DNA from: a virus
Virus record (IMG/VR): IMGVR_UViG_3300044619_001363
Location: 1 to 31,536 of that record
DNA: 31,536 nucleotides
Reading direction: 5' to 3' (one strand)
The stretch's first letter is position 1. Each line of letters starts with the position of its first letter. This document shows positions 20,824-31,536 of this stretch, piece after piece. A program made the position numbers and the translations under genes. A model generated the notes under the pieces. It was given only the letters and a program-made list of their open reading frames with translations. It made no database searches and was not told the origin of the DNA.

Positions 20824-20922
20824 CAAATGGTTCAGGTCTCACGTTATATGAACTTTAAAAAATTATTGCCCAATCATTTGAAAGCGACGTGAGACCCGCG
20901 AGTAGAATGGTTGGGTTTTTTA
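20824..20922 (+). ncRNA. Pseudoknotted leader / ncRNA with competing pairings and terminator
   Basis: Three pairings are visible. Stem S1: GGTCTCACGT (20835-20844) with ACGTGAGACC (20887-20896), ten perfect pairs. P2: CCCAATCATT (20869-20878), in the loop of S1, with AATGGTTGGG (20906-20915), ten pairs with one G-U, followed by TTTTTT; with S1 this is an H-type pseudoknot and acts like a terminator. P3: CAAATGGTT (20824-20832) with AATCATTTG (20872-20880), nine pairs with one G-U, which excludes P2. Mutually exclusive P2/P3 is the layout of an attenuator. It lies directly before the replication gene (ATG 20936). There is no ORF inside. I do not recognise a known RNA family. Confidence 0.75.
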
Positions 20923-20935
20923 TTTATTTTTTATC

Positions 20936-21733
20936 ATGGCAACTGGAAAAAACAAAGTAATTGTTTACGCGGATTGGATTAGCTTATTTGATAAATTGAC
21001 AAATGAAGAAGCTGGAAAGCTAATAAAACACTTTTTCAATTACGTCAATGACATGAATCCAGTTTGTGAAGACAGATTGATTGAATTATTATTTGAACCA
21101 ATCAAAGCAACTTTAAAACGTGACCTTCAAAAATGGGAAGAAAAAACTGACGTGAATCGTGAAAATGGAAGGAAAGGCGGTCGACCAAAAAAAACCGAAC
21201 AAAACCCAAATAAACCGAACGGTTTTTTTGAAACCCAAAATAACCCAAAAAAAGGCGTTAGTGATAGTGTAAGTGATAGTGTAAGTGATAGTGTAAGTGA
21301 TAGTGTTAATGTAAATGATAGTATTTCTTTTAAAAAAGAAACAAAATTTATATTTAAAGCTGAACTTTTGAAATTAAATTCCGACGAACAACTGGTCGAC
21401 GAATGGCTTTCGATCCGGAAATTCAAGAAGGCAAGAAACACCGAAACTTCATTCAAGGCATTTGTAAGGGAATTAATGAAATCAAAATTACCAGTGAATG
21501 AAGTTTTAAGAATTTGCGTCGAAAGAAGCTGGTCAGGATTTGACGCGACCTGGATCAACAACATAAAAAACAACAACAATGCAAACACACAACAACCAAT
21601 TAGCAACGAAGAACGAAGAAGAAGCTATCTTGAAAGAGTTCTTCACGGAAATAATGAACCAATTGACAGCCAAAGGTCACACAATGGCGAGGATAACAGC
21701 GCCTTTGATGTTGTCGAAATCGTCGAAAGTTGA
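20936..21733 (+). CDS. Putative replication initiator / replisome organiser (265 aa)
   Basis: The N-terminal domain (residues 1-75, VIVYADWISLFDKLTNEEAG through LIKHFFNYVNDMNP) is typical of Bacteroidetes-phage proteins found in replication modules and resembles phage replisome organisers. A basic linker (NGRKGGRPKKTEQNPNKP) is followed by a repeat tract (SDSVSDSVSDSVSDSV) encoded by 12-bp DNA iterons, then a C-terminal helical domain (ELLKLNSDEQLVDEWLSIRK) that may load helicase. The layout, with iterons plus an AT-rich stretch inside the initiator gene, resembles lambda O and its origin. The next gene starts within its last 155 bases in another frame. Confidence 0.75.
   Translation: MATGKNKVIVYADWISLFDKLTNEEAGKLIKHFFNYVNDMNPVCEDRLIELLFEPIKATLKRDLQKWEEKTDVNRENGRKGGRPKKTEQNPNKPNGFFETQNNPKKGVSDSVSDSVSDSVSDSVNVNDSISFKKETKFIFKAELLKLNSDEQLVDEWLSIRKFKKARNTETSFKAFVRELMKSKLPVNEVLRICVERSWSGFDATWINNIKNNNNANTQQPISNEERRRSYLERVLHGNNEPIDSQRSHNGEDNSAFDVVEIVES
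21258..21358 (+). repeat. 12-bp iterons plus AT-rich palindrome: candidate replication origin
   Basis: Unit TAAGTGATAGTG is present four times head to tail: 21258-21269 (one mismatch), 21270-21281, 21282-21293 and 21294-21305. A fifth degenerate copy is at 21312-21323 after a 6-base spacer. An AT-rich region follows directly (21324-21358), containing the palindrome TTTCTTTT-AA-AAAAGAAA. Repeats followed by an AT-rich unwinding region inside an initiator gene is the classic phage origin design. Confidence 0.65.
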
Positions 21734-22337
21734 AGAATCGCGTGAAGAATGCATTCGAATATTGATTTCCAGTTGTGAAATATTGTTCGGTCTTCGCGCT
21801 GAAAATCTTTCACCTGAACTTTGGAACATTTCATTTGCGTCGATTTGCGAACGTTTCGTCGGCATAACGATAACAGACATTCAAAACGCTTTCAGATACG
21901 CTGTAATCGAAAAAAAAGCCTATCAAACGCTAACGCGCGACGAATTGCTTGAACCGATTTCACAATATTGGAAGAATAAAGTGATTTTGCTGAATGAAAT
22001 CGACGTAATTCGACGCAAAAATGAAGAAGAATTGAACTCGATCCGATTGGAACAAAAATTTCGCGAAGAATCAAAGAAAATTTATTTGGAATCATTGACC
22101 GTTGGAAGCTGGAAAGGCGACGAATTTCAGGCTGACGCAATTGCTCGGAACTTTGCCGAATGTTTTTCGCAAGAAGACAAAAATGAATTCATGAGTTTGG
22201 CGAAAATGGAATTCGCACGACGAAAAAAAGCCGCTGAAGGAAATCAATTTGAACTTGTTCCGAGTTGGCAAAAGATTTTTTCGCGCATTTACGTTGAAAA
22301 TTGCATTCAGAAACGAATCAAATTTGTAAATACATGA
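21579..22337 (+). CDS. Putative replication-module protein (252 aa)
   Basis: The protein is helical throughout, with a central domain (ELWNISFASICERFVGITIT, then DIQNAFRYA) and a charged helix (KNKVILLNEIDVIRRKNEEE). No Walker motifs are visible, so it is not a complete helicase or loader ATPase. The start is uncertain: ATG 21579 has a good leader (AAAACAACAACA) but overlaps the upstream gene by 155 bases. In-frame ATGs at 21654, 21684 and 21708 would shorten the overlap. It is coupled to the PP-loop gene downstream by an ATGA overlap at 22334. The role in replication is inferred from its neighbours. Confidence 0.68.
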   Translation: MQTHNNQLATKNEEEAILKEFFTEIMNQLTAKGHTMARITAPLMLSKSSKVEESREECIRILISSCEILFGLRAENLSPELWNISFASICERFVGITITDIQNAFRYAVIEKKAYQTLTRDELLEPISQYWKNKVILLNEIDVIRRKNEEELNSIRLEQKFREESKKIYLESLTVGSWKGDEFQADAIARNFAECFSQEDKNEFMSLAKMEFARRKKAAEGNQFELVPSWQKIFSRIYVENCIQKRIKFVNT

Positions 22338-28248: not shown

Positions 28249-29457
28249 TTACAAATTGATTATTTGCTTCAGGTCGTCAATTGAATATGCACCGATTTCA
28301 GTCAATGTTTTCATTGCGTTAGCTTTCTTTTCAAGAACTTCAGCTTTTTCTTTTTCGTTTTCCTGAAGAACTGAAATGTGAGAATAATCGAGTTCCAACC
28401 ATTCGCCTTTTTCAATCAATTTGAATAGCTGTGAGCGGTTCATTGCGAGTTCTTCGGCTTCGGGAATGATTGTTGACTGGTATGCTTGTTTAATTCCTTC
28501 AGCAAGGTTTTCGTAAGTTGAACCAGTCTGACGAGAAAAAATGTTTGCATTCAATCCGTATGCGTCGATTATCGTTAAAAAGTCGTCGTTGATTTCTTCG
28601 AACAACATTAAGTCTTTTGTCGGGAAAGTCATCGGTTGCCAGTTTAACGACGTGTTTGTCATTATCGTATGCATTTGACCTTCTTCAATTCCATAAAGAC
28701 GTTGATATTCGTCGTTCAATCTTTGACGTTCTTTTTCTGTCAATGGAATGGATCCGGATTGGTCCTTTGATTGATTCGATAAAATACCAAGCGCACCTTT
28801 TCGGTTGATAATAACGTTTCGGAAACCATAAGCGCCGCGAATGTTTGAAATCGGCATAAAGAGCGAAGTCATGGGTGATTCACCTTTCACTGGGTTTTTT
28901 GAAGAAACGTAACGAGTTTGATTGATTTCGTTTGTGTTGAATTTTACACCGCTTCCGTCAAGATATTCGTATCCAGTAATGATTCCTTCAATTGTCGTTT
29001 GTGCATACCATTTGCCCGAAACGTTGATTTGCATTTGAGCGGCTGGTAAATTTGTTAACCCTTGTGGAAATGAAGTCGGCAAACCGCGAAGAATGTATTC
29101 GTAATTATTTCCGTAGACACATTTGTTTTCGTTCCATTGACGAATGTGGTCGTTTCCATTTACCAACGGATTCGGATTTTCCAAAAGCTTTACAACTGGT
29201 GAATCAGTTATTTCAAGAACATTTCCATATCTGTCACTTTTGTAATGCTTCCAAACACCTGAAGCGAGTAAATAACCGCGTCTTTGAATGACAGCGTAAA
29301 GCTGTGGTGTTGTTATATATACATTGTAAGCGTCCCATGAATCGGGCGAAAGCCATTGTGGTTGACCAGTCAGAATTTGTGCGGTTTGTGTTCTTGGTGT
29401 TTTAGTGTAACTGAAGCCAAAAAGGGAATTTATGAGTGACAAGGGCGTGAAATCCAT
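28249..29457 (-). CDS. Portal protein, encoded on the opposite strand (402 aa)
   Basis: This HK97-type portal is the twelve-subunit ring at the DNA entry vertex. The N-terminal part has YITTPQLYAVIQRRGYLLAS and LLENPNPLVNGNDHI, a classical portal opening. The central part has MTSLFMPISNIRGAYGFRNV and NRKGALGILSNQSKDQSGSI, and the later part FSRQTGSTYENLAEGIKQAY (stem/clip region) with a helical C-terminus. ATG at 29457 gives MDFTPLSLINSLFGFSYTKT. An ATG nine codons earlier would overlap the promoter box and is rejected. It is the only minus-strand gene in the genome, with its own promoter and terminator. Confidence 0.93.
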   Translation of the reverse strand: MDFTPLSLINSLFGFSYTKTPRTQTAQILTGQPQWLSPDSWDAYNVYITTPQLYAVIQRRGYLLASGVWKHYKSDRYGNVLEITDSPVVKLLENPNPLVNGNDHIRQWNENKCVYGNNYEYILRGLPTSFPQGLTNLPAAQMQINVSGKWYAQTTIEGIITGYEYLDGSGVKFNTNEINQTRYVSSKNPVKGESPMTSLFMPISNIRGAYGFRNVIINRKGALGILSNQSKDQSGSIPLTEKERQRLNDEYQRLYGIEEGQMHTIMTNTSLNWQPMTFPTKDLMLFEEINDDFLTIIDAYGLNANIFSRQTGSTYENLAEGIKQAYQSTIIPEAEELAMNRSQLFKLIEKGEWLELDYSHISVLQENEKEKAEVLEKKANAMKTLTEIGAYSIDDLKQIINL

Positions 29458-29481
29458 ACAAAAAAAAATATTTGTTTCGAA

Positions 29482-29489
29482 CAAAATTA
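29482..29489 (-). promoter_or_regulatory. Minus-strand TAnnTTTG box for the portal gene
   Basis: Read on the minus strand, 29489-29482 is TAATTTTG, 25 bases before the portal ATG (29457). Transcription would start near 29475, which rules out the longer ATG at 29484 as a start. A -33 TTG at the ideal spacing is not seen. Confidence 0.5.
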
Positions 29490-29636: not shown

Positions 29637-30475
29637 AATTGCCACAATTCAAAAATAAAGCTGAAGAAATCGAGTACATTGTTGCCAACAAAGAAATGTT
29701 GATTGCGACAAAAAAGATGTCAAATAAGCACACAGACGCGATTCATTTCATTCCGACAATCGATAAAACAGAAACTTCAAAAGCTGTTCTTTCAGGTCCA
29801 GTTGATCCGGTTCTTAACAATTACGAAGAACCAATTGAAGAACCAACACGATTGAAAGCGCGACTTGTTTTGAACACGACGCGAATAATGGATTCACACT
29901 TTGACGTTCACATTGACGGTCTTTGGAATAAAACGCTGAAGGAACAACGACTTCTTTATTTGCTCCAAGAACACGACATGAGTTTTGAAGGAATAATTTC
30001 AGACAATATCAAAACTTCGGTTGAATTGTTAGATTGGTCAAGCGTTGGAATCAAAGCCGCTGGACAAACACAAGCGTTGATTTTTGACGTTGAGATCCCT
30101 GAAGAACGTAATGAATTCATGTTTGAACAATATAAAAATGGGTACGTGAAAAATCATTCAGTTGGAATGCGTTATGTGAAAGTCGAACTTGCCGTTAACG
30201 ACGAACGTTATCCTGAAGAATTCAAAATTTGGAATAAATACATTGACCAAGTTGTCAATCGAAAAGACGCTGAAGCTGTTGGATATTTTTATCCAGTTCT
30301 TGAAGCGAAATTGATTGAAGGTTCAGCCGTTCCAATGGGTTCAAATTACGCGACACCAGTTCTTTCTATTGAAGAAAAAAATATTCAGCCGTCAGATAAT
30401 GACACTGAAAAAACCGAGCCGTCAATCGTTGACACTCAAATCAAACCAAATAGTTTATTTATTAATTTACTCTAA
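29633..30475 (+). CDS. Prohead serine protease (280 aa)
   Basis: This protein is probably the head maturation protease (S78/HK97 gp4-like) that trims scaffold and capsid N-termini. RIMDSHFDVHIDGLWNKTLK (residues about 84-103) resembles the typical start of the fold, QEHD (about 113-116) supplies the likely catalytic His, and NHSVGMRYVKVEL (about 174-186) carries the likely nucleophile Ser. LIEGSAVPMGSN matches the conserved E-x-S..P..N segment. The last 50 residues are low complexity. It is encoded just before the capsid gene, as expected. Confidence 0.88.
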   Translation: MKLPQFKNKAEEIEYIVANKEMLIATKKMSNKHTDAIHFIPTIDKTETSKAVLSGPVDPVLNNYEEPIEEPTRLKARLVLNTTRIMDSHFDVHIDGLWNKTLKEQRLLYLLQEHDMSFEGIISDNIKTSVELLDWSSVGIKAAGQTQALIFDVEIPEERNEFMFEQYKNGYVKNHSVGMRYVKVELAVNDERYPEEFKIWNKYIDQVVNRKDAEAVGYFYPVLEAKLIEGSAVPMGSNYATPVLSIEEKNIQPSDNDTEKTEPSIVDTQIKPNSLFINLL

Positions 30476-30488
30476 AAACACAAATCAA

Positions 30489-31536
30489 ATGTTTGTAGAA
30501 AAAACAATTGAAGAAGTAAGCGCAATGTCAATGACTGAACAAGCGGCTTACCTTACGGAAAAAAAGGCACACGAACTGAATGTTCGTAAGGCTGAAATCG
30601 AAGCGGCTATTGCTGACGCTAAAAAAGAAACTTCAGGTGAACTTGAAGCTTTGAAAGCTGAATTGAACAACGTAGCGGTTGAATTGAAAGGATTGAAAGA
30701 AGCACCAGCAAAAGTTGAAGGTGCGAAAACAATCGGTCAGGCTTTGACAAACGCTTTGAAAGCGGCTGAAGCTGACATTAAAAAAGCAATCGACGGAAAA
30801 CAAGACGCGGCAATTAAAGCTGTAATCACAATGTCAGTTGACGATACAATCGGCGCTGGTCCAACACAAGTGACCATTACTGACAACACTGGAATCATTT
30901 CACCAATAAGAAAACGCGAATTGCGTTATTTGGCAAATGTTTCTGTCGGATCAACTTCAGGAAACCGCGCTCTTTGGATCGAAGAACTTGACGAAGAAGG
31001 GAATCCAATCATGTTGGCTGAAGGTGCAACAAAACCTGAAGCTTCAGTTCGTTACGAAGAAAGAACAGCAAACGTTAAGAAAATCGCTGTTTATGGAAAA
31101 GTAACGACTGAAATGATGTCTGACTTGCCACAATTGATTTCGTACATTCAAAACAACTTAATGAAGCGTTTGGACATCGTTCTTGAAGACAACTTCTTCA
31201 ACGGTGACAACCTTGGTGATAACTTGAACGGAGCGTTCAATCTTGCTACACCTTGGGCGGCTGGTGCTTTAGCTGGAACAATCGTTTCACCTTCAGATTA
31301 CGACGTTGTTGAATCAGTTGCGCTTCAATGTGAACTTGCTTTCGGAATGCCGACAGCTATCTTCGTGAATCCAGCTGTGGTTGCACGAATGAGATTGACA
31401 AAAGATTCAGTTGGTCAGTATGTTTTGCCAGTTTTCGCAACAGCAAACGGATTGGAAGTTTCAGGAATGCGAGTAATTCCAACGACAGCCGTAACTGGTG
31501 AAGATTTCATTGGTGGTGACCTTTCAGTTTTGAACG
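30489..31536 (+). CDS. Major capsid protein, N-terminal part (HK97 fold; continues at position 1)
   Basis: This is the shell subunit. Residues about 15-85 form a charged coiled coil (EIEAAIADAKKETSGELEAL), like the HK97 delta domain, probably removed by the upstream protease after scaffolding. The fold then follows, with NTGIISPIRKRELRYLANVS, VYGKVTTEMMSDLPQLISYI and LEDNFFNGDNLGDNLNGAF, typical of the spine helix and P-domain region. The gene runs off the right edge and continues in frame at 1-205, so the full protein is 406 residues. ATG 30489 has leader CAAATCAA. Confidence 0.93.
   Translation, partial: MFVEKTIEEVSAMSMTEQAAYLTEKKAHELNVRKAEIEAAIADAKKETSGELEALKAELNNVAVELKGLKEAPAKVEGAKTIGQALTNALKAAEADIKKAIDGKQDAAIKAVITMSVDDTIGAGPTQVTITDNTGIISPIRKRELRYLANVSVGSTSGNRALWIEELDEEGNPIMLAEGATKPEASVRYEERTANVKKIAVYGKVTTEMMSDLPQLISYIQNNLMKRLDIVLEDNFFNGDNLGDNLNGAFNLATPWAAGALAGTIVSPSDYDVVESVALQCELAFGMPTAIFVNPAVVARMRLTKDSVGQYVLPVFATANGLEVSGMRVIPTTAVTGEDFIGGDLSVLN
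31505..31536. repeat. Terminal direct repeat, right copy
   Basis: This is identical to bases 1-32 and in the same capsid reading frame. It marks the circular join of the assembly. Confidence 0.95.

Follow-up and report, generated by a model that had tools for sequence, protein, structure and literature searches.

A candidate replication origin built from upstream repeats and an ordered hexamer array inside a phage DUF6291 initiator gene

The DUF6291 initiator gene and its surroundings

The window, meaning the whole 31,536-nt stretch of DNA that was analysed, ends on the right in an open reading frame (30315-31535) that continues at the left end (1-205) with the peptide overlap FIGGDLSVLN, which suggests that the window is a circularly permuted, near-complete phage genome. 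The host is probably a member of the Bacteroidota. The candidate origin lies within a plus-strand gene for a 265-aa protein (20936-21733), which the original prediction had called an initiator gene. Homology bears this out: the protein matches DUF6291 (PF19808) in Pfam with an E-value of 1.4e-24 and a score of 86.5 bits against a gathering score of 27.2, and it matches the PHROG families 'primosomal protein' (4.2e-29) and 'replication initiation O-like' (1.7e-18), the O-like match being limited to residues 66-248. DUF6291 is the only family to reach the Pfam cut-off; the N-terminal DNA-binding domain of the lambda O family does not.

The N-terminal DUF6291 domain (codons 8-85; 20957-21190, plus strand) is predicted to form three helices, the last of them long (47-81). 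It overlaps a putative specificity segment (codons 74-86, the RENGRKGGRPKK region; 21155-21193, plus strand), proposed because the type of this segment goes with the class of the repeats downstream. A C-terminal O-like helical domain (codons about 134-213; 21335-21574, plus strand) is indicated by the PHROG match and an AlphaFold model. The AlphaFold models have a mean pLDDT of 80.6 for DUF6291 and 64.2 for the whole protein; in the latter, helices occupy both ends and the middle (about residues 87-135) is of low confidence and disordered. Both models are all-helical, without strands, in comparison with the winged-helix Rep fold. Neither model matched the PDB at E<=0.001, and a sequence search found no solved relative (best E-value, 0.14).

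The next gene (21579-22337, plus strand; 252 aa) starts inside the initiator gene and is a candidate helicase loader by position only; its product matches no Pfam family above the cut-off. The corresponding gene encodes a DnaC-like protein, a P-like protein, a primase, or a primase/helicase in four of the seven annotated DUF6291 phages viewed, and it is hypothetical in two others. Two genes past the initiator, 22334-23167 matches a phage phosphoadenosine phosphosulfate reductase family (phrog_424, E-value 1.8e-21). A small protein encoded at 18286-18723 matches DnaA domain IV (Bac_DnaA_C, E-value 7.8e-9), and a DnaA-like gene is also close to the initiator in phi13:2 and P12002L. The portal gene (28249-29484) has minus-strand orientation although both the terminase gene beside it and the genes to its right are on the plus strand, in what looks like an inversion.

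The region upstream of the initiator gene (20828-20925) contains two hairpins whose loops are able to pair, as a pseudoknot or a kissing interaction, with a T-run after the second hairpin. Among 121 upstream sequences from relatives, counted with near-duplicates, 16 fit a strict version of this two-hairpin pattern, and none of 2420 shuffles does; the sequence in the window falls short of the strict version. In nine aligned sequences including the window, the covariation score is 0.424 compared with 0.199 for shuffled sequences, a value reached in 0 of 500. The element has no match in Rfam and is a candidate for a new regulatory RNA or attenuator.

A hexamer array conserved at the DNA level

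The original prediction had described, in the middle of this gene, four head-to-tail copies of a 12-bp iteron plus one degenerate copy. The repeats are real and span 21258-21323, but the copies number three exact, one near-exact, and one degenerate: TAAGTGATAGTG is exact at 21270, 21282, and 21294 and has one mismatch at 21258, and the last copy (21312, two mismatches) is not head-to-tail, being separated from the rest by a 6-bp half unit (21306-21311). Tandem Repeats Finder reports a period of 12 with 3.9 copies and 100% matches, and five matches with up to two mismatches arise in 1 of 100 shuffles (mean, 1.37). The hexamer is a better description of the unit than the 12-mer. Eleven in-register GWWANT hexamers, which include the 12-mers, occupy 21257-21322 on the plus strand according to Tandem Repeats Finder and motif counts, and the nine in-register triple hexamers of the form GWWANW found in the window all lie within this array, compared with 0.08 expected. 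Close relatives retain the hexamer class and not the 12-mer; L003, for instance, carries GATAGT repeats. The array of the more distant L006 mixes GTAAAT and GATAAT. The length of the array ranges from 18 to 78 bp among relatives.

We collected DUF6291 genes with residues 1-105 of the N-domain, a query free of the repeat; 80 viral loci were kept, and at least 475 further DUF6291 loci matched. Of the 80 viral genes found by the N-domain alone, 71 contain four or more GWWANW hexamers in a run. Adding the window and ten loci obtained by other searches brought the total to 91 genes, which were reduced to 54 by removing near-duplicates according to 4-mer overlap (L039, an incomplete gene, was dropped). 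The run is present in 45 of these 54 genes (36 of 44 from the N-domain search and 9 of 10 from the others), and only one such run occurs elsewhere in 367 kb of the deduplicated viral loci. In a bacterial genome set, 21 of 32 DUF6291 genes carry the run and none occurs elsewhere in 296 kb. Of the 54 viral genes, 9 lack the strict four-hexamer run, as do 11 of the 32 from bacterial genomes, among which one is masked.

Array codons were counted in 50 deduplicated viral genes, an array being taken as two or more consecutive [VD][SNT] dipeptides. Array Ser is encoded by AGT in 105 of 105 codons, compared with 121 of 557 (22%) for the other Ser codons of the same genes, and array Asn by AAT in 118 of 118, compared with 463 of 804 (58%). 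Asp is GAT in 119 of 122 array codons and in 497 of 687 elsewhere in the same genes, and Val is GTA or GTT in 143 of 143. The arrays of the genome set show Ser as AGT (25/25), Asn as AAT (69/72), Asp as GAT (50/51), and Val as GTA or GTT (89/90), slightly looser than the viral arrays, with AAC in 3 of 72 Asn codons, GAC in 1 of 51 Asp codons, and GTG in 1 of 90 Val codons. Counted per array, the viral arrays use exclusively AGT for Ser in 27 of 27, AAT for Asn in 33 of 33, and GAT for Asp in 43 of 45, and those of the genome set in 9 of 9, 15 of 17, and 20 of 20, respectively.

Comparison of the window with close relatives gives a similar result. Across the linker, array, and AT-rich flank, unchanged residues keep identical codons in 43 of 43 positions in L003, 42 of 42 in L004, and 39 of 39 in L005, compared with 66 of 121, 73 of 118, and 67 of 120 (55-62%) in the domains, where the overlap with the next gene was excluded. 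The more distant L006 shows 27 of 31 in the linker region and 36 of 65 in the domains. The uniform codons of the array and the identical codons at unchanged residues agree with the original proposal that the DNA rather than the peptide is under selection. Relatives that keep the peptide without the DNA unit would speak against it; this was checked, and the opposite, conservation at the codon level, was seen. These comparisons support the conclusion that selection acts on the DNA of the array and not on the peptide.

An alternative is that the array is merely a low-complexity protein linker generated by replication slippage, with the codon uniformity as a by-product. The variable length of the array (18-78 bp) and the predicted disorder of the linker fit slippage, which would also be expected to homogenise a single array, but slippage does not account for AGT as the only Ser codon in all 27 viral Ser-bearing arrays, for the identical codons at unchanged residues here and not elsewhere in the gene, or for the upstream motifs described below, which occur in three frames and both orientations with many 10- and 20-bp steps that are not codon multiples. 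We regard slippage as extremely improbable.

The array is followed by an AT-rich flank (21323-21358, plus strand), recognised from the sequence and the stability profile. The AT-rich stretch that the original prediction had placed after the repeats is confirmed by duplex stability in 100-bp segments: the segment from 21282 is the second least stable in the window among those more than 150 bp apart, and a stability below that of the segment from 21257 is found in only 0.12% of all 100-bp segments. When the loci of relatives are ranked by stability, the lowest 10% includes the 100-bp segment beginning at the array start in 51 of 75 cases, the one beginning at the array end in 23 of 75, and the one immediately upstream of the array in 0 of 76. 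An easily melted stretch after stable binding sites is the classic anatomy of an origin. The predicted 18-base inverted repeat is also present, as TTTCTTTT-AA-AAAAGAAA (21324-21341), with 8-bp arms (21324-21331 and 21334-21341) around AA and 16 of 18 bases paired. By a strict pattern, 6 of 76 genes, that of the window among them, have a similar inverted repeat within 60 nt past the array, and it falls in two reading frames; G-bearing variants (L084, L092, and L115) lie outside this count. The pattern is found nowhere else in the 48.9 kb that the 76 genes make up. In the close relative L005, little of the AT-rich flank is left. The inverted repeat may be a lineage-specific accessory part, not a general one.

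Upstream repeats, protein subclasses, and the distribution of the array

Motif counts reveal five copies of AACC(C/G)AA on the plus strand directly upstream of the array (21193-21248), spaced 10-19 bp: AACCGAA at 21193-21199, AACCCAA at 21203-21209, AACCGAA at 21213-21219, and AACCCAA at 21232-21238 and 21242-21248, the last beginning 15 bp before the array. An inverted half-site, CGGTTT (21220-21225, minus strand), forms the dyad AAACCG-AA-CGGTTT with the third copy. The window holds 27 copies in all, 22 of them scattered outside the cluster, with 15.5 expected, and what is special about the motif in the window is the cluster only, not the overall number.

Related repeats were examined in 76 genes, after 10 of 86 genes lacking a three-hexamer run had been dropped; the L102 linker is masked. 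Protein subclasses were set by eye after the sequences had been viewed, and the association of subclass with motif is descriptive. Of the 35 linkers in the GGRP subclass, to which the window belongs, 29 contain AACCCA/TGGGTT, with 106 copies in total compared with 2.3 expected from the rest of the genes. At least two copies of AACCCA are present in 27 of 35 GGRP genes and in 0 of 41 others, TCGC(A/T) is present in 13 of 13 GNLKRW, 3 of 5 RW, and 1 of 13 ASAEKR genes, (T/C)CAAC(A/T) in 9 of 13 ASAEKR genes and 1 of 63 others, and AAGC(A/C) in 4 of 4 GGLKSG, 4 of 6 unclassed, and 10 of 35 GGRP genes, all according to these by-eye subclasses. The kind of repeat and the protein segment that follows the DUF6291 helices vary together, a covariation that partly reflects shared descent. 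Very regular upstream repeats are also seen in other array genes; in L196 (9970-10080), four 11-bp AAACCAAAATG-type copies precede the array.

The spacing of the upstream repeats often follows the helical repeat. The most frequent same-strand steps are 10 bp (20), 20 bp (20), and 9 bp (17) for ACCCA in GGRP genes (n = 66), 10 (22), 9 (15), and 20 (11) for TCGC in GNLKRW genes (n = 58), and 9 (14), 10 (11), 20 (5), and 30 (5) for CAAC in ASAEKR genes (n = 40). Steps not divisible by three make up 42 of 66, 38 of 58, and 18 of 40, respectively. AACCCA falls in frames 0, 1, and 2 of the GGRP linkers 36, 31, and 24 times and is inverted 15 times; changes of frame such as these are not expected of a peptide repeat, and for the upstream repeats they weigh heavily against slippage. 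Between the last repeat and the first hexamer, the distance is 5 in all 13 GNLKRW genes and in 9 of 11 motif-bearing ASAEKR genes, and it is 13 or 14 bp in 20 of 28 motif-bearing GGRP genes (20 of 35 overall).

Hexamer runs are present in seven annotated phages that have DUF6291 in common and differ in the C-terminal part of the protein, whereas three O-like relatives with other N-domains (Polaribacter P12002L, Acinetobacter Brutus, and an Escherichia phage) have no three-hexamer run on either strand. Judged by these sequences, the array goes with the N-domain and not with the C-domain. Similarity clustering places 76 N-domains in one cluster and 72 C-terminal parts in 18, the largest with 38 members and the number a rough one from single linkage with low-complexity sequence unmasked, and the junction is at the array. 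Such a pattern is what would be seen if the linker were chiefly a recombination joint for the exchange of C-terminal domains between phages. Exchange, however, requires shared sequence and not a fixed distance from repeats to array, phasing, or low stability, and it may itself result from a shared DNA element, so we consider this explanation very improbable.

A scan that began from the array (six GWWANT hexamers; 80 loci kept) found at least 81 arrays. Among the matches listed, at least 59 arrays lie in DUF6291 open reading frames according to the family profile, all 59 in the sense direction, and two more array genes (L165 and L175) are DUF6291 by Pfam and were missed by that profile. The remaining 20 arrays among the matches listed include some in other initiators, among them a DUF1376-like family (below the Pfam cut-off), and six found in short open reading frames only (L143, L157, L162, L177, and L205 twice). 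A later scan found one DUF6291 open reading frame, L362, with an antisense run. In a PHROG search of 10 array-bearing proteins, L174 and L202 had no matching family. A control with reversed order (GTNAWW x6) gave 82 arrays among the loci kept, 14 of them in DUF6291 open reading frames; 12 of the 14 double as sense GWWANW runs, mostly GATAGT, and the other two are in L389 (sense GACAAT repeats) and L362 (antisense to the gene). This control is weaker than intended because the GTNAWW and GWWANW patterns overlap.

The DUF1376-like family was collected by an N-domain-first search (80 loci, 13 after deduplication). In these genes, CATATG repeats adjoin GAAAAT-type hexamers, with at least four hexamers in 8 of 13, and no such run occurs in 69 kb of these loci outside the gene. 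Array Asn is AAT in 40 of 40 codons compared with 58%, and of the 77 DUF1376-like genes having both elements, 73 have CATATG beginning 6 bp ahead of the array. The two N-domains show no significant similarity by hhalign (probability 1.5%, E-value 0.033). Both families touch phrog_6451, and a remote kinship is possible. The presence of similar arrays in the DUF1376-like family means that the array is not the mark of one initiator family.

These results bear on which repeats the initiator would bind as duplex DNA. The 12-mers stand head-to-tail, are specific in sequence, and in the examined loci hardly occur outside the initiator gene; they could be its iterons, with the AACC(C/G)AA repeats secondary. 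However, the array keeps one consensus across protein subclasses in which the upstream repeat and the basic segment change together, it recurs next to different repeats in the separate DUF1376-like family, it has the lowest duplex stability within the region, and its 6-bp step is not helically phased, in contrast to the 10- and 20-bp steps common among the upstream copies. The 12-mer as iteron is unlikely on these grounds and given the retention of the hexamer class alone in close relatives; the subclass-specific, helically phased repeats that adjoin the array upstream had been overlooked in the original prediction. Comparison of the sequences suggests that the AACC(C/G)AA copies are likelier to be the iterons than the 12-mers.

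The proposed origin and its relation to known origins

From these sequence features, we conclude that the linker of the DUF6291 initiator gene is probably the replication origin of the phage, or one of its origins, in a bipartite form consisting of iterons and an unwinding array. The conservation at the DNA level, the helical phasing, the usually fixed junction, the low duplex stability, and the association with initiator genes support this reading; that the protein binds, that the DNA melts and one strand is captured, that a helicase is loaded, and that the site acts as an origin are inferred. The N-terminal part of the initiator would bind the five iterons (10-19 bp apart, with the inverted half-site) as double-stranded DNA, with a specificity probably provided by the basic segment past the DUF6291 helices. 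Binding would strain the neighbouring GWWANT array and AT-rich flank and lead to melting. Either the initiator or a partner would then hold the exposed ordered strand, and a helicase loader or the helicase would be recruited by the C-terminal domain. The predicted disorder of the linker in the protein would leave its codons free to carry origin DNA. As to what reads the hexamers, we favour a shared factor, given their independence from the iteron class; reading through the initiator's own single-strand binding is possible. Cumulative GC skew rises across most of the window with no turning point at 21 kb and is uninformative on the origin.

Initiators commonly repress their own genes, and iteron-like sites alone are no proof of an origin. 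The repeats could accordingly be an in-gene operator for autoregulation or copy control, but that would leave unexplained both the conserved hexamer array of low stability that adjoins the sites and its place inside the initiator genes of two families, and we judge an operator without origin function to be quite improbable.

The best reading is a bipartite in-gene origin with a lambda-like plan and new parts. The parallel with lambda O/ori drawn in the original prediction holds, in that repeats and AT-rich DNA separate the N-terminal from the C-terminal portion of an initiator gene and the C-terminal part of the 265-aa protein matches the O-like PHROG. Unlike in lambda, the N-domain here is DUF6291, the repeats have a 7-bp core and are mostly 10 bp apart, and the AT-rich part is an ordered hexamer array common to many initiators. 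Lactococcal phage TP901-1 rep resembles the window in having three in-gene direct repeats, 15 bp apart, and differs in having no three-hexamer GWWANW run on either strand. The gene is annotated as 'replication protein, experimental', and its in-gene repeats are reportedly necessary for replication. According to the passages of PMC7466680 on lambdoid and Stx phages, oriLambda likewise lies in the middle of gene O, with iterons followed by an AT-rich region, and two additional iterons in Stx phages amount to 13 more O residues. The SPP1 oriL (gene 38) is alike in layout, with direct repeats and an AT-rich unwinding element within the gene for the origin-binding protein; unlike the window, it has no hexamer array in the passages of PMC6316719 that describe it.

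Similarities extend to bacterial and plasmid origins. Bacterial oriC places DnaA boxes before the DnaA-trio (BUS), that is, double-stranded sites before a short-period repeat, the DnaA-trio (3'-GAT-5') having a period of 3 and being read by DnaA, as outlined in excerpts of PMC8287927. The array here has a period of 6 and another sequence, and DnaA boxes are absent nearby. Identity of the array with the DnaA-trio is ruled out by the period of 6 and by the sequence, compared by eye with the 3'-GAT-5' consensus. DnaA-box-like sites (TTWTNCACA) number 3 in the window compared with 8.15 expected, with none within 3 kb of the array, and with these sites not enriched we found no role for the DnaA-like protein. 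In the RK2 and F plasmids, as summarised in parts of PMC4081077, the initiator binds duplex iterons as well as one strand of the repeats in the DUE, a pair of activities that the initiator here may share; the DUE repeats there are 13-mers or 8-mers of other sequence, in contrast to hexamers in the initiator coding sequence here.

More tentatively, GWWANT arrays could be a general phage origin element, an oriented period-6 signal for unwinding or loading that follows any iterons, is read by a conserved host or replisome factor rather than the initiator, occurs in separate initiator families, and is a counterpart of the DnaA-trio. DUF6291 is unmentioned in the open-access literature searched, and no description of the hexamer arrays was found in the mainly open-access literature searched. 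To our knowledge, the origins of most metagenome-only phages are unknown. If the proposed reading is right, subclass repeats together with a GWWANT run in an initiator gene would be a rule for locating the origin in hundreds of phages and prophages, a function would be suggested for DUF6291, and the matched sets of protein segments and DNA repeats would allow a recognition code to be derived. If true, an ordered period-6 unwinding element common to different initiators would bear on how DNA is opened by initiators that lack AAA+ domains.
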